IMG/VR virus record: IMGVR_UViG_3300043357_000021
Location: 1-23,371 of that record
Source: a virus
Length of the DNA: 23,371 bases
Strand: one strand, 5' to 3'
Below, piece by piece: positions 4,794-23,371 of this stretch. A program made the position numbers and the translations under genes. The notes under the pieces are model-generated. The model saw only the letters and a program-made list of their open reading frames with translations, was not told the DNA's origin and ran no database searches. The stretch's first letter is position 1. Every line of letters begins with the position of its first letter.

Positions 4794-7394
4794 ATGGCAC
4801 GGGCCGCGAAACCCCGTCACGAGCCGCTCGACGACGAGGACATCCTCGCCATCCTGCGCGCTTACAAGCAGGACGCGGAGAATTACGCTGACGATACGTT
4901 AGCGCCCGATCGCGAGCGCGCTTTCACCTATTACGAGGGCCTCGTCCTGAACGACGACAATACGCCCGAGCAACGAGATCCCGGGCGATCGGCGACGGTT
5001 GTCCGTGAGGTCGCTGACATCGTCCACACGATGCTCCCCGGCATCATCAGGATCTTCGCTGGCGGCGATCGCGTGGTTGATTACGAGCCCAGATCGCAGG
5101 AGGACGAACCCGCCGCGATGCAGGCGACCGAATATGTCTCCTGGCTCCTGAACGCTGACGGCAACAACTGGTTCTCGACTCTCTACGACTCTGTCCACGA
5201 CGCGCTGCTCAAGAAGATCGGCGTCATTAAATGGTGGTTTGAAGAGTCTACCTCGGTCGAAGAGTTCGATTACACCGGCCTGACCCTGCTTCAGTTCATG
5301 CAACTGTCCCGGGACCCCGAGATCACCGTGCTGGAGCAGTCCACCCAGGCGCCCGCCGGGGGCGCGCTGGACGACGCGGCGGGCGCGGGGGATACCGAGG
5401 ACCAGACCGAACCGCCGGACCCTGGGGTGGGTGCCGCTTCAGTCCCGGCCCCGCCACCCGGCGTGGGGCCTCCGCCGGATAACGCACCGCCCGGCGGAGG
5501 CCTGCCTCCCCTGGCCGCCGCGCCCCCACCCGGTGCCGTCCCAGGTTTGCCACCCCTCAACGGCGCCGGTCCCGGCATGCCGCCTCCGGTTTCCTCCGGC
5601 GGCATGCCGGGGCTTCCCGGCATGTTCGATCCGGGTCCGCAACCGGCGATCGACTGCACGGTGCGGCGTGAGCGGATCAAGCGGTTGTTACGGGTGCAGG
5701 CCGTTCCGCCCGAGGAATTTCTGATTGCCCGCGAGGCGCGCACGGTTCTGTTGTCCCGCTACACGGCGCACCGGACCACGCCGACGGTCTCCGAGCTGCT
5801 CGAGCTGGGCTACGATCGCGAGACGGTCGAGGCGCACGCCAAGCCCGATGCCGGCGGACGCAACACGGTCAGATCCAACGAGGCCCGACAGCGCAATCCG
5901 GGTCTGCGCGAGGGCGACAGCGACGGCGGCCCCGACATCAGCACGTGGCGCGTGCCCTATACCGAGGCCTGGGTCCGTATCGATGTAGACGGCGACGGCA
6001 TCGCCGAGCTGCACCGCATCTGCACCGTCGGGGAGAACGATGAGGAGATCGTCGCCGACGAGATCGATTATGACGCGCCGTTCGCGCTCCTCAACGCGAT
6101 CCGCCTGCCGCATGCCGCGATCGGCTACTCGATAGCCGACCAGACGATCGACCTGCAGGACATCAAAACCTCAGTCCTCCGCAGCATCCTCGACAGTTTA
6201 GCACAATCCATATTCCCACGCACGGCCGTTGTTGAAAATGCCGTCACGATGGACGACGTGCTCAACAACGAGGTCGGCGCCATCATCCGCATGCAGGCGC
6301 CGGGCATGGTCCAGCCGCTCAGCGAACCGTTCATCGGACAACAAGCCTTGACGGTGATGAACTACCTCGACGAGATGCGCGCGCAACGCACCGGCATCAG
6401 TCGCCAGTCTCAGGGCCTCGACGCCAACGTGCTCCAGAGCACGACAAAATCCGCTGTCTCCGCCTCGGTCGAAGCCACCCAGGATCGCGTCGAACTGATC
6501 GCGCGCACGTTCGCGGAAATCGGCATCAAGGACGTTTTCAAGGGTTTGCTGCGTCACATCATCCGGCACCAGGACAAGCCGCGCGTGGTGCGCTTGCGTA
6601 ACCAATGGGTGAGCGTCGATCCGCGCTTCTGGGACGCGGAGATGGACGTTTCGGTCAACGTCGGACTGGGGCGCGGCACCGACGAACAACGCATGGCGTT
6701 CCTGCAGACGATTGGACAAAAGCAAGAACAGGTCTTGCAGATGCTGGGCCCCGACAACGCTCTTGTTTCGATCGGGCAACTACGTGAAACCTACGCCGAG
6801 ATGCTCCGCATCGCGGGTTTCAAGAACCCCGATCGCTTCTTCCGGGTCGTTACGCCTATGCAAGAGCAGCAGCTCAGCCAGCAGATGGCTCAGAACAAGC
6901 CGCCCGATCCCAACCAGCTCCTGGCCCAGGTCGAGGGTGAAAAGACGAAAGCGAAATTCCAGACCGACCAGAGCCAGCAGCAGCTCGACGCCGCGAAAAC
7001 CAAAAGCGACGATGATTTCCGGCGCGATCAGCTCGACGCCGACGTGCTGCTGCGCGCCGCCGAGATCCAGGCCAAATATGGGACCCAGGTCGATATCCAG
7101 ACGATCCAGGCGGCGCTCGAGCGCGACCGTCAGGCGCTGACGCAGCAGCACGAGCTGCAGCTCAGCCGGGAGCAGCAGATCGCCGCCGCTGTCCAGCAGC
7201 GCGCCGCCGAGGCCGCCAGCGAACGGCAGCAGGCCGCGTCCCTCGGCAGCAACCGCGACATCGCGACCCAGAGGGCAAACACGCAGATCCGCACCGGCCT
7301 GATCCGCGAGGCCCTGCGGGCGCCGCCGATCGGCGCGGGCGTCAATGGCGCGCCCCCCGGCAACGGGGCCGCCGCGCCCGACGGGGGGTCGTGA
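4794..7394 (+). CDS. Portal protein with proline-rich insertion
   Basis: This encodes an 866-residue protein forming the dodecameric ring through which DNA enters and leaves the head. The N-terminal region has the podovirus portal pattern: YYEG, RSATVVREVADIVHTMLPGI, IFAGGDRVVDYEPRSQEDE, a QATEYVSWLL helix and a DALLKKIGVIKWW strand. The core continues after residue 285 (VRIDVDGDGIAELHRIC; DEIDYDAPF; a long AIGYSIADQTIDLQDIKTSV helix). Residues about 183-284 are a Pro/Gly/Ala-rich low-complexity insertion not expected in portals. Residues about 685-825 are Gln/Ala/Arg-rich helices resembling a C-terminal barrel or coiled coil. Its stop overlaps the next ATG by one base. No terminase is adjacent. 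Confidence 0.93.
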   Translation: MARAAKPRHEPLDDEDILAILRAYKQDAENYADDTLAPDRERAFTYYEGLVLNDDNTPEQRDPGRSATVVREVADIVHTMLPGIIRIFAGGDRVVDYEPRSQEDEPAAMQATEYVSWLLNADGNNWFSTLYDSVHDALLKKIGVIKWWFEESTSVEEFDYTGLTLLQFMQLSRDPEITVLEQSTQAPAGGALDDAAGAGDTEDQTEPPDPGVGAASVPAPPPGVGPPPDNAPPGGGLPPLAAAPPPGAVPGLPPLNGAGPGMPPPVSSGGMPGLPGMFDPGPQPAIDCTVRRERIKRLLRVQAVPPEEFLIAREARTVLLSRYTAHRTTPTVSELLELGYDRETVEAHAKPDAGGRNTVRSNEARQRNPGLREGDSDGGPDISTWRVPYTEAWVRIDVDGDGIAELHRICTVGENDEEIVADEIDYDAPFALLNAIRLPHAAIGYSIADQTIDLQDIKTSVLRSILDSLAQSIFPRTAVVENAVTMDDVLNNEVGAIIRMQAPGMVQPLSEPFIGQQALTVMNYLDEMRAQRTGISRQSQGLDANVLQSTTKSAVSASVEATQDRVELIARTFAEIGIKDVFKGLLRHIIRHQDKPRVVRLRNQWVSVDPRFWDAEMDVSVNVGLGRGTDEQRMAFLQTIGQKQEQVLQMLGPDNALVSIGQLRETYAEMLRIAGFKNPDRFFRVVTPMQEQQLSQQMAQNKPPDPNQLLAQVEGEKTKAKFQTDQSQQQLDAAKTKSDDDFRRDQLDADVLLRAAEIQAKYGTQVDIQTIQAALERDRQALTQQHELQLSREQQIAAAVQQRAAEAASERQQAASLGSNRDIATQRANTQIRTGLIREALRAPPIGAGVNGAPPGNGAAAPDGGS

Positions 7395-9127
7395 TGGCGG
7401 GCTGGGCCGATTACGTCGAGCCGGGTTCACCTGACCCGGGCCTGCTGGACGAGGACTGGCTGCGCTGGCGGCTGGCGCAGCTCCCGGCGGAGCCAACGCG
7501 ACAGCCGCCCTCGTCCGCGTCCGCGCAACAGCTGACCATGCCCTCGCCCGGCTTCCGCCCGGCCACGGAGGTCGGTGGCGGCGCCTGGGGCCCGCCCGGC
7601 CTGCTGTCGGCGGAGCAGGCCGACAGCATGCGCGAAGGCTCGCTCGACCTGTTCTCCCAGGCGGCGATGCTGGGTGGCGCGCCGGCACCGGCCAGCGCGG
7701 AGGCCCGGGCGCTGGCGCTGGGTCGCACGCGCGTGCCACGGAGCCCGGTGCCGCCGCGTCTCGCCGCGCGCATGACCGACGTCCCCGAGTTCGAGCCGAA
7801 CGCCCTATCCTACATCCAGCCGGGGGATACCGCCCTCGCCCCGCCGGAGGGCGTGCCGACCCGTGGCATTGGCGACAACCGGCCGCCGGTCCGCAACGCG
7901 ATCTGGGCCGGGCGGCCGGGCCGGGCAGCGGCGGTCAACGTCAGCGGGCGGATGGGCAGTGGCGCCGACAAGACGCTCGAGGAGCTGGGCCTCCCCGCCT
8001 ACGGCGACATCGTGCCCTCGACCAACACCGGGCCGGTCACCGAGGCCCAGGTGCAGGCCGGATCTCCGGTGCGCCCGGGTCAGGTGTTCGACCTGTCGGA
8101 CACCTGGAAGGTGCCAGCCGTGGCGCAGGAGGGCTTGCTGCGGATCGACCCCGACGCCGGCCGCCGCAAGGGCCTGCCGCAACACGTCATCGACGCGACG
8201 ACCGATCCCGACATCCGCGCGAAAATGCGGTCGGTCGCCGAGGCGGGCCTCAAGCAGGGTGGCGCTTACTGGTATAACGCCGAACCGTTACGACTGGCGT
8301 TCGTTTCGGAGCTGGGCCCCGACGACGGCAACAAGACGTTCGCGAAATACATGTCGACGATCGGCGCGGTCAGCGCCGGGTCCGACGTCGGCCAGAACGT
8401 CCGCACCGCGTCCTACTACAACGTGCGCGAGCGCCAGGGCGACCCGGTCCAGTCGGTCGAAGATCTTGAGAGCCCCTACGGGCACAAGATGCAAAACACC
8501 CAGTTCAACGCATACGCGGACATCGCCGGAGGTAACCCGCTGGACCCGGCGATGCGTCCAAAGCGCGCCTCGTTCGATGCCAATCTGCAAGGAAACCAGC
8601 AGCCGGTCACGGTCGACAAGCACAACCTCCGCCTGATCGGAATGTTGAGCCAGAACCCCGAGTTTCTCAACACGACGATGAAGGCTGACGTCAACTACCC
8701 GAGCGTCGGCATCAACAAAGGCGACAGCATCAACTGGCGTGACGCGGTCAAGAGCGGGCGCATCAGCATGGATCAGGCCTTGCAGATCCCACAGGCCTGG
8801 AAGGACGTGCCGGAGGCGAACCAATACGGCGCGCTGGAGGGCTTCCAGCAGTCCCTGGCCCAGGAGATGGGCCTCACGCCCGCGCAGCTGCAGGCGGCGC
8901 TCTGGGTCGGCGGCGGCCGGCTCACTGGCCTGCGCTCCCTGCCGACCTCGTTCATGGGGGCCGTCGAGAGCCGGTTGCAGAAGACCGCCGCCGCGCGCGG
9001 CGGCACGCCGACGGCGGCGTTGCTCGATTTCATTCGCGGAAAGAAACCATTGCTGACGCCGCTCGCGGCCGGCGGTGGCGCCGCCGCCAGCCTGCTCTAC
9101 CCTGATGACAAAGGGCAGGAGCAATGA
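7394..9127 (+). CDS. Conserved phage protein (DUF7178-like), function unproven
   Basis: This encodes a 577-residue protein. ATG 7394 overlaps the portal stop; a GTG one codon earlier is possible. The first 130 residues are low-complexity, starting with a DPGLLDEDWLRW motif. From about residue 260 the sequence follows a conserved phage family that I associate from memory with DUF7178: FVSELGPDDGNKTFAKYMS, NVRTASYYNV, SPYGHKMQNTQF, NLQGNQQPVTVDKHNLRL (about 395-414), NQYGALEGFQQSLAQEMGLT and QAALWVGGGRLTG (about 500). A Lys in a Gly-containing turn and a later VD-H motif recall the HhH-GPD DNA glycosylase fold, but that is inference. The gene sits between portal and scaffold, so the product may be packaged. 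Confidence 0.8.
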   Translation: MAGWADYVEPGSPDPGLLDEDWLRWRLAQLPAEPTRQPPSSASAQQLTMPSPGFRPATEVGGGAWGPPGLLSAEQADSMREGSLDLFSQAAMLGGAPAPASAEARALALGRTRVPRSPVPPRLAARMTDVPEFEPNALSYIQPGDTALAPPEGVPTRGIGDNRPPVRNAIWAGRPGRAAAVNVSGRMGSGADKTLEELGLPAYGDIVPSTNTGPVTEAQVQAGSPVRPGQVFDLSDTWKVPAVAQEGLLRIDPDAGRRKGLPQHVIDATTDPDIRAKMRSVAEAGLKQGGAYWYNAEPLRLAFVSELGPDDGNKTFAKYMSTIGAVSAGSDVGQNVRTASYYNVRERQGDPVQSVEDLESPYGHKMQNTQFNAYADIAGGNPLDPAMRPKRASFDANLQGNQQPVTVDKHNLRLIGMLSQNPEFLNTTMKADVNYPSVGINKGDSINWRDAVKSGRISMDQALQIPQAWKDVPEANQYGALEGFQQSLAQEMGLTPAQLQAALWVGGGRLTGLRSLPTSFMGAVESRLQKTAAARGGTPTAALLDFIRGKKPLLTPLAAGGGAAASLLYPDDKGQEQ

Positions 9128-9423
9128 CGCCCGCGCGCGATCCTTCTGTCGCCCTGCGCGAGGCCGTCGCCTTCGCCGAGCGGGCCACGGTGACGCTCGA
9201 GGACGCCGGCCTGCGCGCGTCGTTCGCGCGGCTGCAGGCGCACTACCTCGACCAGATGCGCCGTCTGCCTCCCGAGGACCGGGACGGGCGGGAGGGCGCC
9301 TACCTGATGCTCCGCGCGCTGGACGCGCTGGCCACTGATCTCGCCCAGATGATCAGCGGCGCCGCCATCGCGAAGCACAATTATCGTTCTGTCCTGAGAA
9401 CGGTTGGAGACGATCAAACATGA
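9124..9423 (+). CDS. Small helical protein before scaffold
   Basis: This encodes a 99-residue protein overlapping both neighbours by four bases (ATGA). It is almost entirely predicted helix, with alternating hydrophobic and charged residues (LREAVAFAERATVTLEDAGL; ALDALATDLAQMISGAAIAK). No cysteine or motif is conserved that I can recognise. Position between portal and scaffold genes suggests a head-assembly or packaged accessory role. No family assigned. Confidence 0.7.
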   Translation: MTPARDPSVALREAVAFAERATVTLEDAGLRASFARLQAHYLDQMRRLPPEDRDGREGAYLMLRALDALATDLAQMISGAAIAKHNYRSVLRTVGDDQT

Positions 9424-10499
9424 GTGGCACGCAGCAACCGGGCACCCCCGCGCCGCCGAGGCCGGGATCTACGTTGCAAGAGGCGGCGGCCAGCATCGAG
9501 GCTTTACTGGACCGCGAAAGCGATACCCAGGAGGCCCCGAGGCGGCCCGTGCCGCGCCCGACACCGTCGCCTCGGGCGACGGATGACGCGGCGCCGTCCG
9601 ACGATGCCGAGACCGACCCACGCGAGACGCTGGCCGAGGTCGAGGACGACGAGATCGACGATGTGGTCCCGCCGCCCGAGGCCGAGGAAGAGGGGACGGA
9701 GGAGGCGACCGATGACGCCGAGGATACCGACGAGGCCAAACCAAAGCCGCGCATGCTCACCGTCAGGCTTGACGACAAGACCGTGCAGCTGCCCGAGGAC
9801 GAGGTCGTCAGAGGCTATCTCAGGCAATCGGACTACACCAAAAAGACCACGGCGCTCGTGGAAGAACGCAAGGCGTTCGTTCCGCACGTCGAGGCCTTGC
9901 GTCAGGAGCGGGCACAATACGCCGAGCTGTTGCCGGTGCTGCATGAGCAGATCAAAGGGTTGCGTGGACAAATCGGCGAGCCCGATCCCGCGCTGATCAA
10001 TACGGATCTGCAAGAATACATGCGCCAGCGCGCCGTCTACGAAGATCTCGTCAAGCGGGAGGAGGCGGCGAAAACCGAGGGCCTCCGGCTGTGGCAGATC
10101 AGTGAGGCGGAGCGGCGGAAGGAACGCGCGGAGCTGCTGGTCCGTGAGCGGGAATTGATCAAAGAGCTGGTTCCCGCCTGGGCCGATGACAATCGGTGGA
10201 AACAGGTGACCGCGACGGCGCGCGCTTTCGCGGTCGAACTTGGCTACACCGAGGAGCAGATCCGAGAGGTGACCGACCACCGCGCGGTCTACGCGCTGTG
10301 GGCCGCCGCGCGTTATATTCAGCAGGCGAAACAAGGCCGGGCGGTGCCGAACCCACCTCGCCGCGAGGTCACGCCTTCGCCGGAACCGGGCCCGCACCCG
10401 ACACGCCGCCGTCTGTCGGCGCACACACAGAACAAACAGCGTCTCGCGAAATCACATTCAGTCGCCGACGCGGCGGCTGTCATCCGTGGCCTCCTGTGA
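9420..10499 (+). CDS. Capsid scaffolding protein
   Basis: This encodes a 359-residue protein that is expected to fill the procapsid and guide coat assembly before leaving or being destroyed. The first 110 residues are disordered and strongly acidic (EVEDDEIDDVV; EAEEEGTEEATDDAEDTDEA). Next comes a block usual in phage scaffolds: VRLDDKTVQLPEDEVVRGYL then RQSDYTKKT and a long charged helix (about 115-260). The C-terminus is basic (PTRRRLSAHTQNKQRLAKS), the usual coat-binding helix-turn-helix position. GGAG upstream of ATG 9420 and direct precedence to the coat gene support the call. Confidence 0.87.
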   Translation: MSGTQQPGTPAPPRPGSTLQEAAASIEALLDRESDTQEAPRRPVPRPTPSPRATDDAAPSDDAETDPRETLAEVEDDEIDDVVPPPEAEEEGTEEATDDAEDTDEAKPKPRMLTVRLDDKTVQLPEDEVVRGYLRQSDYTKKTTALVEERKAFVPHVEALRQERAQYAELLPVLHEQIKGLRGQIGEPDPALINTDLQEYMRQRAVYEDLVKREEAAKTEGLRLWQISEAERRKERAELLVRERELIKELVPAWADDNRWKQVTATARAFAVELGYTEEQIREVTDHRAVYALWAAARYIQQAKQGRAVPNPPRREVTPSPEPGPHPTRRRLSAHTQNKQRLAKSHSVADAAAVIRGLL

Positions 10500-10511: not shown

Positions 10512-11993
10512 ATGCCCAAGGTAACAAACGCCTTCACGACCTATCAGGCGAAAGGAAATCGCGAGGATCTGGCGAACGCGATCTTCAACATTGATCCGTC
10601 AGATGTCGTCTTCCTGTCCATGTCGGACACGCGCAGCATCTCCAACGTGATGTTTGATTGGCAGACCGAACATCTGCCGGCGGTCAACGCCACGAACGCC
10701 CAGGTTGAAGGTTTCCAGCTGGTGCGATCGGCGGCGACGCCAACGGTCCGCATCGGCAACGTCGCCCAGATCAGCGAGCGTGACGCGACCGTCTCGGGCA
10801 CCCAGGAAGCCGCCGACGCGGCCGGCAAATCGGGGGAGATGGCGCACCAGATGGCGCTGGTCGGCAAGGCGCTGAAGCGCGACATGGAGACCATTCTGCT
10901 ATCAGGACGTCCGTATAACGCCGGAGTGGACGACACCACCGCGCGCAACACGCGCGGCCTCGAGCACTGGATCACCACGAATGCGTTCTACGGCGCGACC
11001 GGCGCCAATCCGGTGTCGCCAACGGCGGCGATCACGCCCGGCACGCCGCGCGCGTTCACCGAGGCGATGCTGGCCGACGCCATCCAGCAGACCTACGACA
11101 ACGGCGGCGAGCCCGATCATCTGCTGATGGGCTCTTACATCAAGCGGGTGTTCAGCACCTTCGAGGGGAGGTCGGACAGCCGCCGCACGGTGGACACCGA
11201 CGAGGTTGTCGCGGCGGTGGATTTCTACCTCTCAGACTTCGGTGAGCTGAAAGCGTATCCCTGCCGTAACATCAACAAGTCCACCGTGATCGGCTGGGAC
11301 CCGGCCTATTCCAAGATCGCCTACTACAGGAAGATGGACCGGATTGATATCGGAACGATCGGTGACGCGACCACCAAACTGATCCTGTCCGAGTATGGCT
11401 TGCAGTGTTCCAACGAGGCGGCGCACTTCAAGATCGCCGACCTGATCACGACGGGCGCCATCACTCTGGCGGCACGGAACAGCAACGAGCCGCGCGTGAT
11501 CGGTGGCGTCTTTGGCACGGCGGCTTACGGCGATCCCGCCAGTCAGGCCCAGGACCGCCTGCGGATGGTCAACGCCCAGGGCGAGGTGACCGCGTTCGAC
11601 GGTTCCACGACCGGAGCGGTGCTGAGCAGCGACGGCGCGGTCGTCGCCTCGCCCGGCGGGCTCGCTCCGGTGCCCTACGCCGGGGTGAACCCCGGCGCGA
11701 TGCCGCCGCCGCCAAATACCACGCTCCCGGCTCCCGCCGCCCAGGCGGCGGTGGACCAGGGGACCACGCCCGGGGCGCTGACCCTGTCGCCGGGCGCCAA
11801 TCCCTCGGAGGTGGTCGCCAAGGCGCCCAGCGGGGTCAAGGGCAGCGTCGTGTGGGGTGACGCCACCGACGACGGCAAGGCGCACCACAGCGGCTCGAAA
11901 CACACCTACGAGACGCCGGGTGACTACGTCGTCCGTCTGGTCGATGAGAAGGGTGTCCTGCTCGACACGCAGACGTTCCACGTGCCGATCTAA
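10512..11993 (+). CDS. Major capsid protein (DUF5309 type) with C-terminal PKD-like domain
   Basis: This encodes a 493-residue protein with GGAGCGAG just before ATG 10512. Residues 1 to about 330 match the DUF5309-type HK97-fold coat protein: REDLANAIFNIDPSDVVFLS at the start, a VEGFQLVRSAATPTVRIGNV strand, QMALVGKALKRDMETILLSG spine helix, DHLLMGSYIKRVFSTFEG, and TTKLILSEYGLQCSNEAAHF. A Pro/Ala/Gly linker of roughly 85 residues follows. Residues about 427-493 then look like a PKD/Ig-like domain: VVWGDATDDGK, then HTYETPGDYVVRLVDEKG. Such domains on coat proteins decorate the capsid surface and may bind carbohydrate or stabilise the shell. The fusion is seen; its role is inferred. Confidence 0.92.
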   Translation: MPKVTNAFTTYQAKGNREDLANAIFNIDPSDVVFLSMSDTRSISNVMFDWQTEHLPAVNATNAQVEGFQLVRSAATPTVRIGNVAQISERDATVSGTQEAADAAGKSGEMAHQMALVGKALKRDMETILLSGRPYNAGVDDTTARNTRGLEHWITTNAFYGATGANPVSPTAAITPGTPRAFTEAMLADAIQQTYDNGGEPDHLLMGSYIKRVFSTFEGRSDSRRTVDTDEVVAAVDFYLSDFGELKAYPCRNINKSTVIGWDPAYSKIAYYRKMDRIDIGTIGDATTKLILSEYGLQCSNEAAHFKIADLITTGAITLAARNSNEPRVIGGVFGTAAYGDPASQAQDRLRMVNAQGEVTAFDGSTTGAVLSSDGAVVASPGGLAPVPYAGVNPGAMPPPPNTTLPAPAAQAAVDQGTTPGALTLSPGANPSEVVAKAPSGVKGSVVWGDATDDGKAHHSGSKHTYETPGDYVVRLVDEKGVLLDTQTFHVPI

Positions 11994-14504: not shown

Positions 14505-17141
14505 ATGGCAACTATGACGCCAGTCCTCAATCTCGCGAAGCCCATTGTCGGCGCCGACGAAGACCAATGGGGGTTTTTTTGGAACAGCAACGCAGACATA
14601 CTCGACATGATCGTCGGCGCGGTCATCAACGTGCTTGGTCTCGGCGCCGATCCAACTGGTGTGACCGACAGCGCCCCGGCGTTTCAGGCCGCGCTCGCGC
14701 GGCGACGAAACGGTGTTCCGCTGAACGTCTACGCGCCCGCCGGGAAGTATCTGCTCAAATCCCCGATCACGGTTGGTGATGTTAACTACTCGCAACGGCT
14801 TTACGGCGATGGCTGGTCGACTGTGTTGATGGTGGGGCCGGATTTCCCTTCGTCGGCCAACGGCGTGATTGTCATCCAGCCCGGTAACGACTATCCCGCG
14901 CAGGCGTCGGTGACGGACCTTCGCATACACTTTCAACAGCCACCCGATTTCAGCACGACGGCCACGGTCCTGACGGCCCAGGGCGGCATGACGATCACCG
15001 TGGCCAGCGTCACCGGGGCTCGCGTTGGCTCATACGTCGTCAATCAGACCAGCGGTGGCTCCCTGCCGTCACAGTCCAGCATGGCCAAGGTGACGGACAT
15101 CGCGGGCAACGTGGTGACGATTGACCGCCCCACGCTCATGCCCATCGGTGTCGGCCACGTCATCGCGTTCGCGGCCAGTCGTTCGCAGATGGTAACGCTC
15201 ACGCCGACACCAACGCTCAACCCCGGCGACCCCGGCATCAAATATCCGTGGGGGATTTATTGTGTCGCGCAAAGTTTCTTCACGGACCATGTGCTGGTCA
15301 GTGGTGCGTGGAACGGGGTTTACATAAGGGGCCAGACGTTCGCCATCGGCCAACTTTTCGTCGGCTCTCTCAATATCGCACTCGATGTGGACCAATGCTA
15401 CAACTTCCCGAAATTGGACCATTTCATGCTGTGGGGGTGGGGCCTCCCGACGGCCATGCTGGGCGTGTATTACGATGGCCAGACCATCGCGGCGAATATC
15501 GGTCGGTGTGATGATTTCACGTGTGATGTTTTCCAGACGTGGTGCGGTGCTCTCAATCTGACCTCGACGTGGTCCGGTGGGCAGATCAATCAACTTAAGT
15601 TGGACGGCGACAACAGCCGCGTAACCATGGCCGGGACCACCGGAACCTGGACCCAGATCGGCAAGATGTATAAGAGCGGCGGACAGGCCAATCTTGGCAT
15701 TCCCGTCGCGTTGAATGGTGATGATAAGGTATCCATCGGCAGTCTGTATATCTCAGCGGCGCATAACGATCTGGCGATAACGCTGGCGGGCGGATCGTTG
15801 ACGATCAACGGCGGCTATATGTGGAATGGCCTGGGCAATGTTTACCCGATGATAAGTGTCACGGGCGGTGACCTTAGTATCGATCAGGTGCGGTTTGATG
15901 GCTCGACCGGTCGGACCTCGGACTATCTCACGCAGACCGGAGGATCGGTAAGAGTAACCAATTCCGCGTTCATCATGCCACCCGCCCCTGGCGCCGTGGC
16001 GTTCCGTCTGATTGATGACGCGCGGAACAACATCTCCGACATCGCCCTGAACGGATGGGCGTTTACCGCCCCGGGGACGGCGGGCCATTATGACGCATCC
16101 GGCCAGACCGTCATCAAATCCGTTCCATCGGCCACTACGGCACAGTTGTATTTGGTGGGCGGTGACGGCGCCAACGCGGCGGAGGGAAAGCTTCGGTTCG
16201 GTGGCACCTTCCCGACCGGCACGGATACCGCCGCCCGGCACGTCGCGTCGTTGCGTTCGGGTTTCAACAGCACCAGTTGGACCGGGGGTTATTTCGATAT
16301 ATGGCTTGACAACGTGGCGAATGATGCCGCGTCGGACGCGAACCAGACGCGCGTGGCCCGATTTACCTCCAGCCTGATCACATTTGATAAGATGATCAAC
16401 GGGATTAACTTCGGCCCGGCGACGGTAGGCGGTGTGACCGACGTGTCCAGGCATCTGACTCTCTATGATGGTGGAGCGGGTAACAGTGTCGGGCTCAACG
16501 TCACTTCCGGTCGGTTCAATCTCGTGGCTCCCAGCGGGAACAGTGTTGATGTCGTCATCAACGCGGTTGATCGTTTGTCGATCTCCGCGACAGAGGCGAC
16601 TTTCAGTGTCCCGTTGGTCACGGGCGGGGCTGGAAGTTATATCGCGTCCGATCTGCTTAACTTCATCCAGGCGGGCGGCGGGCCGAACAATGCCATCAGA
16701 TTGACGCCGTCCGCTCCAGGCGGCTCACCAAATCTCGCGGTATTGGGTGGTGACGCCAACCCGGTCATGACGTTTTCCGCGCCGGGCACGGGCGGCTTCA
16801 ATTTCCAGGGATACGTGCTTTGTGACAAGGGGGTGAGTTTTGGTGGGCAACTCGCCGCGTCGATAAATGATCTGTCCAAGGGTATCGATTTCTACGGCGG
16901 CATCGTGGGGCTCAATCTCACCGCGTCACGGTTGAACCTTGTCGTCCCGAGCGGCAACTCACTCAGGTTCGTGATCAACAGTTCAGACCGCATGGCGATC
17001 ACCGAGACCGGAATGGGTTTCAATGGCACCGCGCCCGTCGCCAAACCGACCGTGACCGGCGCCAAGGGCGGCAACACGGCGTTGGGTTCTCTGCTTACCG
17101 CCCTGGCCGCTTACGGTCTCGTGACGGACAGTTCGACATGA
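14505..17141 (+). CDS. Tailspike / beta-helix fibre protein
   Basis: This encodes an 878-residue protein. Residues 6-36 (PVLNLAKPIVGADEDQWGFF then N..ADILDMI) form a short virion anchor. From about 43 comes a pectate-lyase-3-like beta-helix start (VLGLGADPTGVTDSAPAFQA, then APAGKYLLKSPITVGD). A long beta-rich region extends to about 540 and probably recognises or cleaves surface polysaccharide. About 555-640 is a fibre module (RFGGTFPTGTDTAARHVASL). Two similar blocks, near 645-700 and 785-840, share LN-T--R-NLV-PSGNS---VIN--DR. The end (PVAKPTVTGAKGG then NTALGSLLTALAAYGLVTD) is a common fibre tip or trimerisation tail. Catalytic residues cannot be assigned from sequence. Confidence 0.88.
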   Translation: MATMTPVLNLAKPIVGADEDQWGFFWNSNADILDMIVGAVINVLGLGADPTGVTDSAPAFQAALARRRNGVPLNVYAPAGKYLLKSPITVGDVNYSQRLYGDGWSTVLMVGPDFPSSANGVIVIQPGNDYPAQASVTDLRIHFQQPPDFSTTATVLTAQGGMTITVASVTGARVGSYVVNQTSGGSLPSQSSMAKVTDIAGNVVTIDRPTLMPIGVGHVIAFAASRSQMVTLTPTPTLNPGDPGIKYPWGIYCVAQSFFTDHVLVSGAWNGVYIRGQTFAIGQLFVGSLNIALDVDQCYNFPKLDHFMLWGWGLPTAMLGVYYDGQTIAANIGRCDDFTCDVFQTWCGALNLTSTWSGGQINQLKLDGDNSRVTMAGTTGTWTQIGKMYKSGGQANLGIPVALNGDDKVSIGSLYISAAHNDLAITLAGGSLTINGGYMWNGLGNVYPMISVTGGDLSIDQVRFDGSTGRTSDYLTQTGGSVRVTNSAFIMPPAPGAVAFRLIDDARNNISDIALNGWAFTAPGTAGHYDASGQTVIKSVPSATTAQLYLVGGDGANAAEGKLRFGGTFPTGTDTAARHVASLRSGFNSTSWTGGYFDIWLDNVANDAASDANQTRVARFTSSLITFDKMINGINFGPATVGGVTDVSRHLTLYDGGAGNSVGLNVTSGRFNLVAPSGNSVDVVINAVDRLSISATEATFSVPLVTGGAGSYIASDLLNFIQAGGGPNNAIRLTPSAPGGSPNLAVLGGDANPVMTFSAPGTGGFNFQGYVLCDKGVSFGGQLAASINDLSKGIDFYGGIVGLNLTASRLNLVVPSGNSLRFVINSSDRMAITETGMGFNGTAPVAKPTVTGAKGGNTALGSLLTALAAYGLVTDSST

Positions 17142-19304: not shown

Positions 19305-19669
19305 TGATGGACGCGCGCCAGCTCCGTCTGGTTGAGCGGGTCAACAAGGCCCTCGCTCACATGGGCACGCACGAGCTGTCCGACGTGATCGCCCTGGCGC
19401 ACGACCGGAAAGCGCAGATCTGGGAGGGCGACGACGCCCTCGTCGTTACGGAACTGAACGATTATCCGTTGTGCCGTGTGCTGCGCTACTGGGTCATCGC
19501 CGGATCGCTCGAGGGCGCGTTCGCGATCCAGCCCAGGATCGAGGCCTGGGGCCGTGAGCACGGCGCCACTGTCGCCGACGCGATCGGCCGGCGCGGCTGG
19601 GAGCGCACCCCACGGCAACCCGGCTGGGAGCACGTCGCGGGATACTGGAGAAAGGGTCTCACATCATGA
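19301..19669 (+). CDS. GNAT-like phage protein
   Basis: This encodes a 122-residue protein; ATG 19301 overlaps the previous stop and has AGGGGAG upstream. The pattern of a strand with DDALVVTELNDYPLCRVLRY, then WVIAGSLEGAF, AIQPRIEAWGREHGATVADA and IGRRGWERTPR resembles a group of phage GNAT-like proteins found beside nozzle and ejection genes. A typical acetyl-CoA-binding Q/RxxGxG/A loop is not obvious, so it may be a structural descendant rather than an active acetyltransferase. The assignment rests on family memory and layout. Confidence 0.6.
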   Translation: MMMDARQLRLVERVNKALAHMGTHELSDVIALAHDRKAQIWEGDDALVVTELNDYPLCRVLRYWVIAGSLEGAFAIQPRIEAWGREHGATVADAIGRRGWERTPRQPGWEHVAGYWRKGLTS

Positions 19670-20664
19670 GCGGCGGCGGATCAGGCAACACCACGACGAC
19701 GACCAAGGCGGAGCTGCCGGGCTGGCTCGCCAACGCGTCACAGGACAATCTCAACCGCGCCGTCGGCGTGGTCAACAACACGGGCTTCACACCTTACACG
19801 GACCCGCGCATCGCCGGGCAGACGCCCGACCAGCTCGCCGCCGCGACCGCGATCCGAAACATGCAGGGCCGGACCGGCGCGGCCCTCGGCTCGCTGGGCG
19901 ATGCCTCCGCCGGTCTGGGCACGTATCAGGCACCCGACGTGAACGCGTGGAAGTTGAGCGACAGCGACCTCACCGGCTACATGAACCCGTTCACGGGCGA
20001 GGTCGAAACGAATGCGTTACGCGCCCTCGAGGGCACGCGGCAGGACAGCCAAAATCAAATAGGTGACGCATTCCAATCGAGCAAGGCCTTCGGAGGATCA
20101 AGGCAGGCACTGCAAAGCGCGGTGACGGATGCTCAATTCGGCCAGCGCGCCGGGGACCTCTCGGCGCAGCTGCGGCAGGCTAACTTCAATCAGGCGCAGG
20201 CGGCGGCGACCGGCGACATCAGCCGCGATCTGCAGGCTCAGCTGGCCAACCAGCAGGCGGGTCTCGCCAGCACCGGCCTCGACCTCTCCGCCTACAAGCA
20301 GGCCGCCGACATCTACGGCCAGCGGCAGGCCGCCGACGTGCGCGACATCGGCCTGCTCGACGCGAGTGGCGGTCAGCAGCAGCAGATGCAGCAGGGACAG
20401 CTGGACATGAACTACCAGAACTGGCTCGAGGGGCAGAACTTCTCCAAGGACCAGATCGCGTGGCTGCAGCAGATGCTTGGCAGCACGCCCGGCAGCGGCA
20501 CGACGACGGTCAACACCGGGGGAGGCAGCAAGGCCTCTCCGGCGATGGGCGCCCTCGGTGGCGCCGCCTCCGGCGCGGCCCTGGGCACGTCGATCAGCCC
20601 CGGCTACGGCACGGCGATCGGTGCCGTGGCTGGAGCGTTATACGGCGGGCTCTCTTCTCGTTAA
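19666..20664 (+). CDS. DNA-ejection / internal virion protein
   Basis: This encodes a 332-residue protein with GGAGAAAGGG before ATG 19666. It contains YMNPFTGEVETNALRALEG (about residues 105-123), a Gln/Ala-rich helical section (QARQAN-type repeats such as AQLRQANFNQAQAAATGDIS) and a glycine/alanine-rich membrane-active-like C-terminus (GALGGAASGAALGTSI, GAVAGALYGG). The YMNP motif and Gly-rich tail are recurrent in podovirus proteins that leave the capsid with DNA or extend the tail tube. It directly precedes the antisense HNH gene. Confidence 0.75.
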   Translation: MSGGGSGNTTTTTKAELPGWLANASQDNLNRAVGVVNNTGFTPYTDPRIAGQTPDQLAAATAIRNMQGRTGAALGSLGDASAGLGTYQAPDVNAWKLSDSDLTGYMNPFTGEVETNALRALEGTRQDSQNQIGDAFQSSKAFGGSRQALQSAVTDAQFGQRAGDLSAQLRQANFNQAQAAATGDISRDLQAQLANQQAGLASTGLDLSAYKQAADIYGQRQAADVRDIGLLDASGGQQQQMQQGQLDMNYQNWLEGQNFSKDQIAWLQQMLGSTPGSGTTTVNTGGGSKASPAMGALGGAASGAALGTSISPGYGTAIGAVAGALYGGLSSR

Positions 20665-20687: not shown

Positions 20688-21383
20688 TTATACATTCCCA
20701 AACAGGCTGCCGTCAACTGTCTTCCGATGTTTCATGGAGGGAGCGAAATGAAGCTGACCTCTGCGATGACGACACCACAGGGCGGCGTAAGAGAGGCCCG
20801 ACCGCAAGGCGGCGTCGGCCAAATTCATGCGGCCCCAGGGGGTGTCCACGATGATGCTGTTTCGCTGATTGCGGTTCTGCTCCGCGCGTGTCGCCCAACG
20901 ACAATTCGCGGGAGAATACGGGCCGTTGTTGTCGATGCGTTCAATTGTCATGCCTTTCTGAAACGTCGGCAGCATATCGTCCTGAAACGCCTGGAAACTG
21001 TTCCGCCAACGGTCGCAGACCGTGATCCCTCTTCCGCCGTAGCGCGGGTAGTCGGGGGCTTTGGTGTTATAGCAACGCTCTTTGAGGCAGCTCCAAACCC
21101 CATAAAGCGGTCTCAGGGCCGCCTTGTTGGGTCCGGCCTTCCGTCGTTGCTCGCGCGTCTTCTCAGGGTTGGCGCGGCGCCAGGCGCGGTCAGCGGCGCG
21201 AGACTTCTCAGGGTCGGCGTGATATCGGGCGCGTTCCTGGGCACGGACTTTCTCAATGTTGGCCTGCCGCCACGCGTTCTGTTGCTCGCGATGGGCGGCG
21301 TTATAGGCGTCCTGCCGGGCGGCGCGTTTCTCTTTGGTCTTCAGCAAATACGCGGCGCGCTTCTCTGGTGTATTGTGCGGCAC
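20688..21383 (-). CDS. HNH homing endonuclease
   Basis: This encodes 231 residues read leftward from a GTG start at 21383; GAAGGA lies upstream on that strand. Residues 1-85 are a basic repetitive helix (AWRQANIEKVRAQERARYHA, AWRRANPEKTREQRR). Residues 92-174 carry the phage HNH pattern: RYGGRGITVCDRW, FQAFQDDM, then MTIERIDNNGPYSPANCRWA and EQNRNQR. The C-terminus (GRMNLADAALRSGLSYAALW) looks like a DNA-binding helix-turn-helix. Such enzymes nick or cut DNA and spread by copying into cut sites. It lies antisense in the late operon between + strand genes, with a small AT-rich strip at 20661-20700, as expected for an intruder. Confidence 0.9.
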   Translation of the reverse strand: MPHNTPEKRAAYLLKTKEKRAARQDAYNAAHREQQNAWRQANIEKVRAQERARYHADPEKSRAADRAWRRANPEKTREQRRKAGPNKAALRPLYGVWSCLKERCYNTKAPDYPRYGGRGITVCDRWRNSFQAFQDDMLPTFQKGMTIERIDNNGPYSPANCRWATRAEQNRNQRNSIIVDTPWGRMNLADAALRSGLSYAALWCRHRRGQLHFAPSMKHRKTVDGSLFGNV

Positions 21384-21478: not shown

Positions 21479-22288
21479 ATGGCAGGCGGTCTGACCTGGG
21501 ACGATTGGCTTAAACTGGGCCTCAGCGCGGCGGGATCGGCGGCGGGAGCGGGAGGCGGCATGGACGTGGGCAGCGGGCTCGCCATGCCGGGCGCCGAGGC
21601 GATGCCCGCGCCGGTAGGTGCCGGTGGCGGGCCCGCCATGCCCATGCCCGCTCCGGTGATGCCGAACGCCGGGCTCCCGGCGACCGTGCCGCCGCCCGGC
21701 GCGGCACCCGGCTTCGGACCGCTCACTCCCATGCCGGGCGCGCCGACCGTCACGCCCGTGCCTGGGCCAGGACCGATGAGCCTCGGCCCGTCCCCGGTGC
21801 CGCCTCCCCCCGGCGCACCCCTGCCCATGGGCCCCGGGGGCCCGGCGGGGCCGGTGCCCGACCCGGTCAATCCGGGGGCCGCCGGGATCAACCAGGGCCC
21901 CGGCTGGCTGCGGCGCAACGTCGGCTCGCCGCTTTCGGAGATGTGGAACGGCAAGCCCAAACCGGACCCGTTCGGTAATCCGGTGCTCGACGCCCAGGGC
22001 AAGCCCGTGCTCGACACGACGGGCGGCCTGACCCCCCAGCAGAAGGCTCTGGTGGGCGTCGGCAACTCCCTCGGCGGGACGCTGTCCAAAGTGGGAGCGG
22101 GAGCCCCGGCGGCGGCCCCGGCGGGTGGCGGGGCGGCTGCCGCCCGGCCGACGACGCCCACGCCGATCGACGCCGCGAGGATCTCGCAGAACCGGCTCCA
22201 GCAGCTGGCCCTGCTGCGCCAGCAGGCAACCCTCGCCGCGCCCTGGTTGCGACGTTACCAGCAGCAGCAGCAAGGACTGATGGGATAG
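21479..22288 (+). CDS. Proline/glycine-rich late protein
   Basis: This encodes a 269-residue protein with AGGAG (21467-21471) before ATG 21479. It opens with GLTWDDWLKLGLSAAGSAAG, then about 110 residues dominated by Pro, Gly, Ala and Met (PMPAPVMPNAGLPATVPPPG; SPVPPPPGAPLPMGPGG). A better-ordered middle has GWLRRNVGSPLSEMWNGKPK and the C-terminus is a Gln/Leu/Ala helix (ISQNRLQQLALLRQQATLAA, with five Gln near the end). It lies between the ejection protein and the lysozyme-like protein, so it is probably an ejection or internal virion component. No family recognised. Confidence 0.75.
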   Translation: MAGGLTWDDWLKLGLSAAGSAAGAGGGMDVGSGLAMPGAEAMPAPVGAGGGPAMPMPAPVMPNAGLPATVPPPGAAPGFGPLTPMPGAPTVTPVPGPGPMSLGPSPVPPPPGAPLPMGPGGPAGPVPDPVNPGAAGINQGPGWLRRNVGSPLSEMWNGKPKPDPFGNPVLDAQGKPVLDTTGGLTPQQKALVGVGNSLGGTLSKVGAGAPAAAPAGGGAAAARPTTPTPIDAARISQNRLQQLALLRQQATLAAPWLRRYQQQQQGLMG

Positions 22289-22297
22289 GAGGCAGCC

Positions 22298-23371
22298 ATG
22301 GCTGATGGGGACCCTGGCCTGCTCGACGACGCCTGGGACGGCTGGAAACACTGGTGGGCGCCAACGGCGACGGACGTGCCGGCGGGCTCGCCCTATGATG
22401 CCGAGACCCTGGGCCTCGCCCGCACCAACATGATCGGCGCCCTCGGCGGCAGGCTACTGGCGCTCAGCCAGGGTGGCCTGCAACCCGCGCAGCGCGCGGC
22501 GCTCCTCGGGTCGATCGGGGAGGTGCCTCAGGTGTTTCAGGACACCCTGACCAAGGGCGCCGAGATCCGCGTGCACGACGCCGCCGCGCGCAAGGCCCAG
22601 GCCGAGCTGACCAGCGAGACCGCCAGCAACGCGATGTTCGACAAGCTGATCGCGGCCAGATCCGGCGGCTCGACCGCCGGGCCCTCCGGCAACCTGCCGA
22701 CGGGCGGGGCGATCCAGCAGGCCCTGGCCGCCCTGGCCCCGGCCGAGAGCGGCGGCAACGCGGGCGCCCAGAACAGCCAGGGCTACTCTGGACGTTATCA
22801 AATAGGTTCATCTCTGGCGGCGGACTCGGGGGTCTACCGGCCCGCCCCCGGCGAGGCCGTCGCCGACGATCGCGGCCGGGCGACCAACCAGTGGCGCGGC
22901 ACGTGGGTGCTCCCCGGCATGGAGCCCATGACGCACGAACAATTCCGCGCCAACCCGCAGGCCCAGCAGGCCGCCGCCGAGGCGGCGATGGCGCACAACT
23001 GGCGCCAGATCCAGGCGGCGGGCCTCGACAAATACGTCGGGCGCGAGGTCGGCGGGGTCAACATCACCGCGCCTGGCTTGTTGCAAGGTGCCTGGTTGGG
23101 CGGCATCAAGGGGCTCCAGACGTGGCTCTCTGGCCAGGGCGACCCCCAGGACAGCAACAAGACCTCGGTCAGCAAGTGGGCCTCGCTACAACCCCCGGGC
23201 GGCGCCAGGACCATGACCGACGCCGGGGGCGGCGGCGCCTCCGAGGCGCCCGGTGGCGCGGCGTTCGTGCCGCCCACGAAGCCGAAAAGCATCGCGGACC
23301 TGACACCGGATCAGTTGATCCTGCTGCGCCAGATGCCCGCCGCGCAGCGCCCGGCGAAGATCCTCGAGCTG
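22298..23371 (+). CDS. Lysozyme-like ejection protein, partial at right edge
   Basis: Starting at ATG 22298, with AGGAGG just upstream, an open frame continues to the window end: 358 residues with no stop. The first 16 residues contain DPGLLDDAWDGW. After a helical region (about 35-125) comes a transglycosylase-like segment: QALAALAPAESGGN with Glu150 as candidate catalytic acid, then GYSGRYQIGSSLAADSGVYR, MTHEQFRANPQAQQAAAEAA and GLLQGAWLGGIKGLQTWL. The ESGG plus GRYQIG pattern is that of lysozyme-like enzymes that open a path through the cell wall during DNA entry. The C-terminal part visible is low-complexity, and more of the protein lies beyond the edge. Confidence 0.8.
   Translation, partial: MADGDPGLLDDAWDGWKHWWAPTATDVPAGSPYDAETLGLARTNMIGALGGRLLALSQGGLQPAQRAALLGSIGEVPQVFQDTLTKGAEIRVHDAAARKAQAELTSETASNAMFDKLIAARSGGSTAGPSGNLPTGGAIQQALAALAPAESGGNAGAQNSQGYSGRYQIGSSLAADSGVYRPAPGEAVADDRGRATNQWRGTWVLPGMEPMTHEQFRANPQAQQAAAEAAMAHNWRQIQAAGLDKYVGREVGGVNITAPGLLQGAWLGGIKGLQTWLSGQGDPQDSNKTSVSKWASLQPPGGARTMTDAGGGGASEAPGGAAFVPPTKPKSIADLTPDQLILLRQMPAAQRPAKILEL

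Follow-up and report, generated by a model that had tools for sequence, protein, structure and literature searches.

The window analysed here is a whole 23,371-nucleotide stretch (positions 1 to 23,371 of the IMG/VR record IMGVR_UViG_3300043357_000021) and represents a phage fragment whose genes include those for a portal and a capsid protein of the SU10 type, a scaffold, tail proteins and an ejection module. A 577-residue protein, P577, occupies a variable slot between the portal and scaffold genes, which relatives fill with unrelated proteins of effector type that have similar N-termini. The features on which the analysis draws are as follows.

4794..7394 (+): portal (SU10_portal), which bounds the cargo slot on the upstream side
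7394..9124 (+): P577, 577 aa, immediately after the portal; DUF7178 body, predicted to be glycosylase-like
7433..7468 (+): 12-residue stretch of P577 singled out in the preliminary description, DPGLLDEDWLRW, aa 14-25
7439..7456 (+): putative tag core of P577, GLLDED, aa 16-21
9089..9124 (+): C-terminal tail of P577, SLLYPDDKGQEQ, aa 566-577
9420..10499 (+): scaffold, which bounds the cargo slot on the downstream side
10512..11993 (+): major capsid protein (SU10_MCP)
19666..20664 (+): DNA ejection protein with a glycine zipper, ejection module
21479..22288 (+): ejection-module gene preceding Lys (the 21479 gene)
22271..22285 (+): putative C-terminal tag of the 21479 gene, QGLMG
22298..23371 (+): Lys, a lysozyme-like protein of the ejection module, truncated where the window ends
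22310..22357 (+): putative N-terminal tag of Lys, DPGLLDDAWDGWKHWW, aa 5-20, a conserved feature of Lys homologs

The P577 reading frame starts at the ATG at 7394, and an alternative GTG at 7391 would add one residue; a 99-aa protein is encoded at 9124. Lys, which reaches 742-780 aa at full length in relatives, follows a PHROG ejection protein and has weak PHROG matches to tail-lysozyme/transglycosylase families; a Lys-like N-domain is also found in phiM5 gp29, a protein annotated as virion-detected. The AF2 model of Lys, built from three sequences, has a mean pLDDT of 53, a confidence too low for use. An HNH endonuclease gene (20688-21383, minus strand) sits between the ejection-module genes of the window, and G004, G007, G008, G010 and G016 leave no room for it at the equivalent place. 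The tail protein at 14505-17138 contains a pectate-lyase-like region; relatives match over only ~40-60 residues at one end or the other, and the remainder appears to have been swapped.

In the predicted model of P577, a confident core covers aa 190-557, and the low-confidence ends, which form disordered tails with a short helix at aa 21-29, contain both tag copies. The body is helical, and DUF7178 is the sole domain found. The best PDB neighbours of the model in Foldseek are the 8-oxoguanine DNA glycosylases TmOgg and MjOgg, the match to TmOgg having a probability of 0.99, a TM score of 0.54 on the target and 15% identity, at an E value below significance (E=0.086). K390 and D408 of P577 are invariant across 37 sequences and lie 18 residues apart; in HhH-GPD glycosylase/lyases, the catalytic Lys and Asp are about 18-19 residues apart. 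The body of P577 may be a divergent HhH-GPD DNA glycosylase-like enzyme, as predicted from the model and this residue pair. Some distant homologs of P577 occur within ORFs of up to about 2,100 aa, and PDB sequence searches with P577 and the lysozyme domain returned nothing useful.

According to the preliminary description, a 12-residue stretch near the N-terminus of P577 recurs in Lys. Positions 7433-7468 (+) indeed translate to DPGLLDEDWLRW (P577 residues 14-25) and positions 22310-22345 to DPGLLDDAWDGW (Lys residues 5-16), and the two agree at 8/12 residues, as claimed, and at 28/36 bases. The remainder of the two proteins had been said to look unrelated; the bodies are taken as such because BLASTP of P577 against Lys aligns the tag stretch only (13 columns, E=0.014, single comparison). 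In a chance test on 18 late proteins, each represented by its first 40 residues, 12-mer matches of at least 8/12 arose in 12/1000 shuffles, and draws of interior 40-mers gave them in 7/1000 cases. Taken alone (p ~0.01), the P577-Lys match is modest and only suggestive evidence.

Alignment of relatives separates a conserved part of this stretch from a part that is not. Close relatives of Lys keep G(L/I)LD..W..(W/F)W, whereas P577 relatives have neither DPGLLD nor the second W, which rules out the 12-mer DPGLLDxxWxxW as a conserved unit. P577 relatives on the same backbone retain GLL or SLL with acidic residues at the N-terminus, as in MGWSDLGGLLTEDDDVWL (G010), MSLLYPGEAELDDDW (G004), MGLLMPDEEDELL (G016) and MSGLLDDYPVNP (Microcystis phage MJing1). 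In Lys, where the tag runs into a Trp-rich segment (W..W..WW), GLL is invariant in seven aligned homologs with identity down to 24%, and the L363 contig, retrieved with a tag-less Lys query, retains the tag segment at its N-terminus (MVGILDDIGSAWGNFW, containing GILDD). The string WDDWLKLG, which the preliminary description had compared with the tag, is present in the 21479 gene (21497-21520), but relatives keep only (D/E)WL..L there, without GLLD. The N-terminus of this gene was ruled out as a third copy, since the C-terminal GLM matches better; GLM is conserved at the C-terminus in relatives, and the gene has no N-terminal GLL.

The LLYPDD of the C-terminal tail of P577 also stands at the start of neighbouring slot proteins in G004, G007 and G009. 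An N-terminal cassette with LLYPDD is common to different post-portal proteins (L050 3477-4709; L046, the 836-aa protein of G007; L070 9635-12334), in two of which IW(N/D)PNNPVGTET(L/I)QSMGMP comes next, and unrelated bodies then follow.

The recurrence of GLL was quantified in portal-anchored loci by comparing 64 de-duplicated slot proteins with a control set of 245 genes that follow the capsid gene. The effector domains ART-PolyVal, PBECR5 and DUF7178 are located directly after the portal in the late cluster, and the tagged slot bodies, which include these and others, are mutually unrelated. Within 40 aa of the N-terminus, GLL occurs in 31/64 slot proteins versus 10/245 controls and ranks first of 1507 tripeptides (p=1.5e-16), followed by LLD at rank 2 (19 slot versus 4 control proteins, p=4e-11); of these figures only the tripeptide ranking is unbiased, because GLL had first been noticed in part of the same data. 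Counted per 20-residue bin from the N-terminus of the 64 slot proteins, GLL falls from 27 through 12, 6 and 12 to 2 and 2. For the last 20 aa, the GLL count is 22 in 60 slot proteins, compared with 10 in 245 controls. After clustering by body sequence, the N-terminal enrichment persists (11/28 slot versus 6/132 control families, p=4e-6), and the C-terminal one becomes far weaker than the per-protein count (5/28 versus 5/132, p=0.016). Examples include the ART-PolyVal protein of G004 (MADPGLLYPDDEQ), MAGLLDPHYG in L164 and MAGLLDDPYY in L167. The single phage L087 has three such slot N-termini: MSGLLDADL, on an ART-PolyVal-like protein that scores below the curated cut-off; MKGLLDAPRK; and MSGLLSDEEF, on a DUF7178-like protein that is likewise below cut-off.

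About half of the slot proteins carry no tag. In a test on new contigs that was set beforehand, GLL was found in the first 40 aa of 0/6 slot proteins versus 1/46 controls, an underpowered comparison that gave no support; three of the six slot proteins look like methyltransferases and are untagged, and L339 has SRGLLDPESER near residue 40, behind a probably mis-called start. A simple rule was used to call gene starts, and wrong calls mask some tag cases as well as producing others. Portal relatives were also found in bacterial genomes, mostly at ~30% identity, and no cargo slot with a GLL tag was seen there; a direct P577 scan of genomes gave no matches.

Where control genes have GL(L/M) at a terminus, their products are mostly internal-virion proteins, namely Lys, the 21479 family and annotated internal virion proteins of phiM5, ctvy9321 and ctyzp037. 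In phiM5, gp28, annotated in GenBank as detected in the particle, ends in MPKGLL. Several ejection proteins have no terminal GLL. As read from these termini, the tag is shared between cargo and internal-virion proteins. One late protein of the LUZ24-like Pseudomonas phage MR299-2, which has no cargo, terminates in GGLLF, and two adjacent late proteins of this phage (L365 14199-14582 and 14587-16110) have SGILS(K/R) near their C-termini.

The two ends of one protein also tend to resemble each other. Over 99 cargo-type proteins, the likeness of N- and C-terminal tails scored 20.3 versus 18.5 (sd 0.4) on permutation (p=4e-4), and p=0.005 was obtained without the GLL class; a few of the high-scoring pairs are low-complexity or mis-assigned scaffold. 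Pairs of like tails are exemplified by SGLLSDEEFDR/TGLLDDEERDR and, in another phage type, by IGALAAQDAYQP/LGALAAQDDYQP. The DUF7178 proteins of another phage type at L228 9686-11014 and L230 1052-2338 carry GA(L/I)AAQDxY at both termini, and the GALAAQDxYQP tag of these P577 relatives is absent from the other proteins of those two loci. The scaffold of the window has the terminal segments EAAASIEALLDRE (9480-9518) and DAAAVIRGLL (10467-10496), and in the scaffolding proteins of the group the segments at the two ends are similar (EAAxxFEALL near the N-terminus and DAAxxFExLL at the C-terminus). Mimicry of the scaffold termini (IEALLDRE / IRGLL) by the tag is treated as a lead only, because phages with cargo and phages that lack it conserve this pair alike.

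The P577/DUF7178 body (loci L002-L008 and L218-L289) is common to unrelated backbones, and its SU10-type and P22-type versions are 67-81% identical. Six further contigs, two of them nearly identical, carry this body and are otherwise window-like only in the HNH gene and a short tail-protein stretch. G003 has a P22-type portal and coat, the coats of G001 and G005 begin with the same sequence, and P577 again follows the portal. The tails of P577 in these phages are different and read VNPLSYGDP..DNPLG and NALQPDD, that is, N(P/A)L. In the same phages, three ejection-module lysozymes (peptidoglycan hydrolases) have the C-termini ENPLTGAPPP, RNPLQSP and ANPLQP, with NPL at most 9 residues from the end in all three although these C-termini cannot be aligned; ..VNPLAA stands at the N-terminus of a second protein from this module. 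In the other genes of the three genomes on which this comparison is based, terminal N(P/A)L was counted in 0/38, 2/43 and 1/44; one of these cases is a P577 fragment, and another would adjoin the ejection module on a circular contig. A Fisher value for the terminal motif overstates independence, because homologs are counted. G005 (IMGVR_UViG_3300046514_000317) contains two non-identical P577 matches at opposite contig ends (151-1686 and 42289-43380), which are 71% and 82% identical to the window and possibly represent two gene copies.

On these sequence comparisons, we consider it somewhat probable that the 12-mer exemplifies a short terminal tag by which virion-internal proteins are marked for loading. 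In SU10/LUZ24-like podoviruses, the tag would consist of G-L-(L/M) with nearby acidic residues, placed in flexible tails at one or both protein ends, and its carriers would be the variable effector-type proteins of the portal-scaffold slot and the proteins of the ejection module. During procapsid assembly, the tag could bind a backbone-specific receptor inside the head, such as the portal crown, the scaffold or an ejection core. This binding would recruit tagged effectors and ejection proteins together, and they would then exit with the DNA. When a cargo gene enters another phage type, its body would remain unchanged and its tails would become those of that type. Compared with the preliminary suggestion of an N-terminal signal for head incorporation, the GLL/acidic core does recur on unrelated slot proteins and internal-virion proteins, and rarely on tail or capsid proteins, but the unit is not the 12-mer; likewise, the tag is N-terminal in slot proteins and Lys, but it is also found at C-termini, the only tagged end of the 21479 gene. 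The general idea of a short virion-incorporation signal appears strengthened, not proven, and is partly supported by the sequences. A wider and more tentative proposal is an address code of backbone-specific end tags, GL(L/M)+acidic in SU10/LUZ24-like and N(P/A)L in P22-like phages, in which horizontally moving effectors might acquire the tails of the new type.

Several other explanations bear on the same observations. The tags could be docking or assembly motifs of the ejectosome that act during or after ejection and bring effectors and ejection proteins to each other or to the channel, with packaging achieved via other contacts. The identity of the tagged proteins, which are ejection-module proteins and slot cargo, is in line with such docking, and the W..W..WW segment of Lys could bind a membrane or a partner; however, a slot beside the portal and scaffold genes suits head assembly equally well, and we regard docking as somewhat unlikely. 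Mosaic shuffling offers another account, in which the tails are end pieces inherited within a few recombining cargo families, GLL reflects common ancestry and no binding has been selected. Some slot proteins do share long N-terminal cassettes by descent (LLYPDD...NPVGTET..SMGMP), tagged P577 relatives are alike around the tag, and the cluster counts are small. Inheritance would not readily place the same core on the Lys and 21479 families, which are unrelated to cargo, or NPL at the unalignable C-termini of three P22-type lysozymes, nor would it make the N- and C-terminal copies alike within one protein, and it is judged unlikely.

The likeness of P577 and Lys might also have arisen by chance, as a common hydrophobic-acidic helix start that is meaningless outside the window. 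The p value of ~0.01 within the window alone, the loss of the 12-mer in P577 relatives and the negative new-contig test all agree with coincidence, but the first rank of GLL among 1507 tripeptides in slot N-termini (31/64 versus 10/245), which survives body-family clustering, makes it quite improbable. That the tag is a processing site at which a prohead protease trims the tails, in the way of T4 at (L/I)xE, seems barely credible: acidic residues follow GLL in many tags and P577 has LDE at aa 18-20, but (L/I)xE is not conserved among the tags (LDD in Lys, LYPGE in G004).

How podoviruses select the internal proteins that are loaded and ejected seems poorly described. If the proposed loading tag operates, a signal readable from sequence would predict injected effectors, such as DNA glycosylase-like enzymes, ADP-ribosyltransferases and nucleases, in metagenomic phages. 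It would also indicate a head receptor and provide a short handle for placing reporter proteins in phage heads, and the swapping of tags would explain concretely how cargo genes pass from one phage backbone to an unrelated one. Literature searches, mostly without subscription papers, found no description of such a terminal tag, and a term search of a 2022 review of ejection proteins (PMC8954989) found no passage on a targeting signal.

Among known systems, encapsulin cargo-loading peptides are short, terminal, hydrophobic peptides of the Gly/Leu type in flexible tails that direct unrelated enzymes to an HK97-fold shell. The tag described here resembles them in its shortness, terminal position, hydrophobic Gly/Leu-type residues and placement in flexible tails, a likeness of kind for which no homology is claimed, but it would act in a phage head containing DNA and is found at both protein ends. 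The capsid-targeting sequence (CTS) of T4 is a short peptide at the N-terminus by which mutually unrelated proteins, an ADP-ribosyltransferase among them, are brought into the head, and the T4 prohead protease cleaves at (L/I)xE. The tag resembles the CTS as a short N-terminal peptide common to unrelated proteins; unlike the CTS, it is also C-terminal and occurs on podoviral ejection proteins, has other letters and lacks a conserved (L/I)xE site, and it is not assigned to the T4 CTS. The body of P577 may be comparable to HhH-GPD/8-oxoguanine DNA glycosylases in its predicted helical fold and its invariant Lys/Asp pair, but the match of its model to these enzymes remains below significance, at 15% identity. 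According to the study on polyvalent proteins (Iyer et al. 2017, PMC5512222), T4 Alt is packaged into the head, and phage ART-PolyVal and PBECR domains near portal genes are predicted to be packaged and injected; a term search of that paper found no terminal tag. The slot proteins resemble polyvalent proteins in carrying the effector domains ART-PolyVal, PBECR5 and DUF7178 after the portal, whereas P577 has a single DUF7178 body instead of multiple effector domains. Finally, a shared terminal tag sets the present proteins apart from podoviral ejection proteins as described, for which no description of one was found. In other respects, the window is similar to the systems of podoviral internal virion proteins (T7 gp14-16, P22 gp7/16/20 and phiM5 gp28/gp29), with an ejection module that combines an ejection-type protein and a lysozyme-like protein, and the phiM5 homologs of this module are recorded in GenBank notes as detected in virions.
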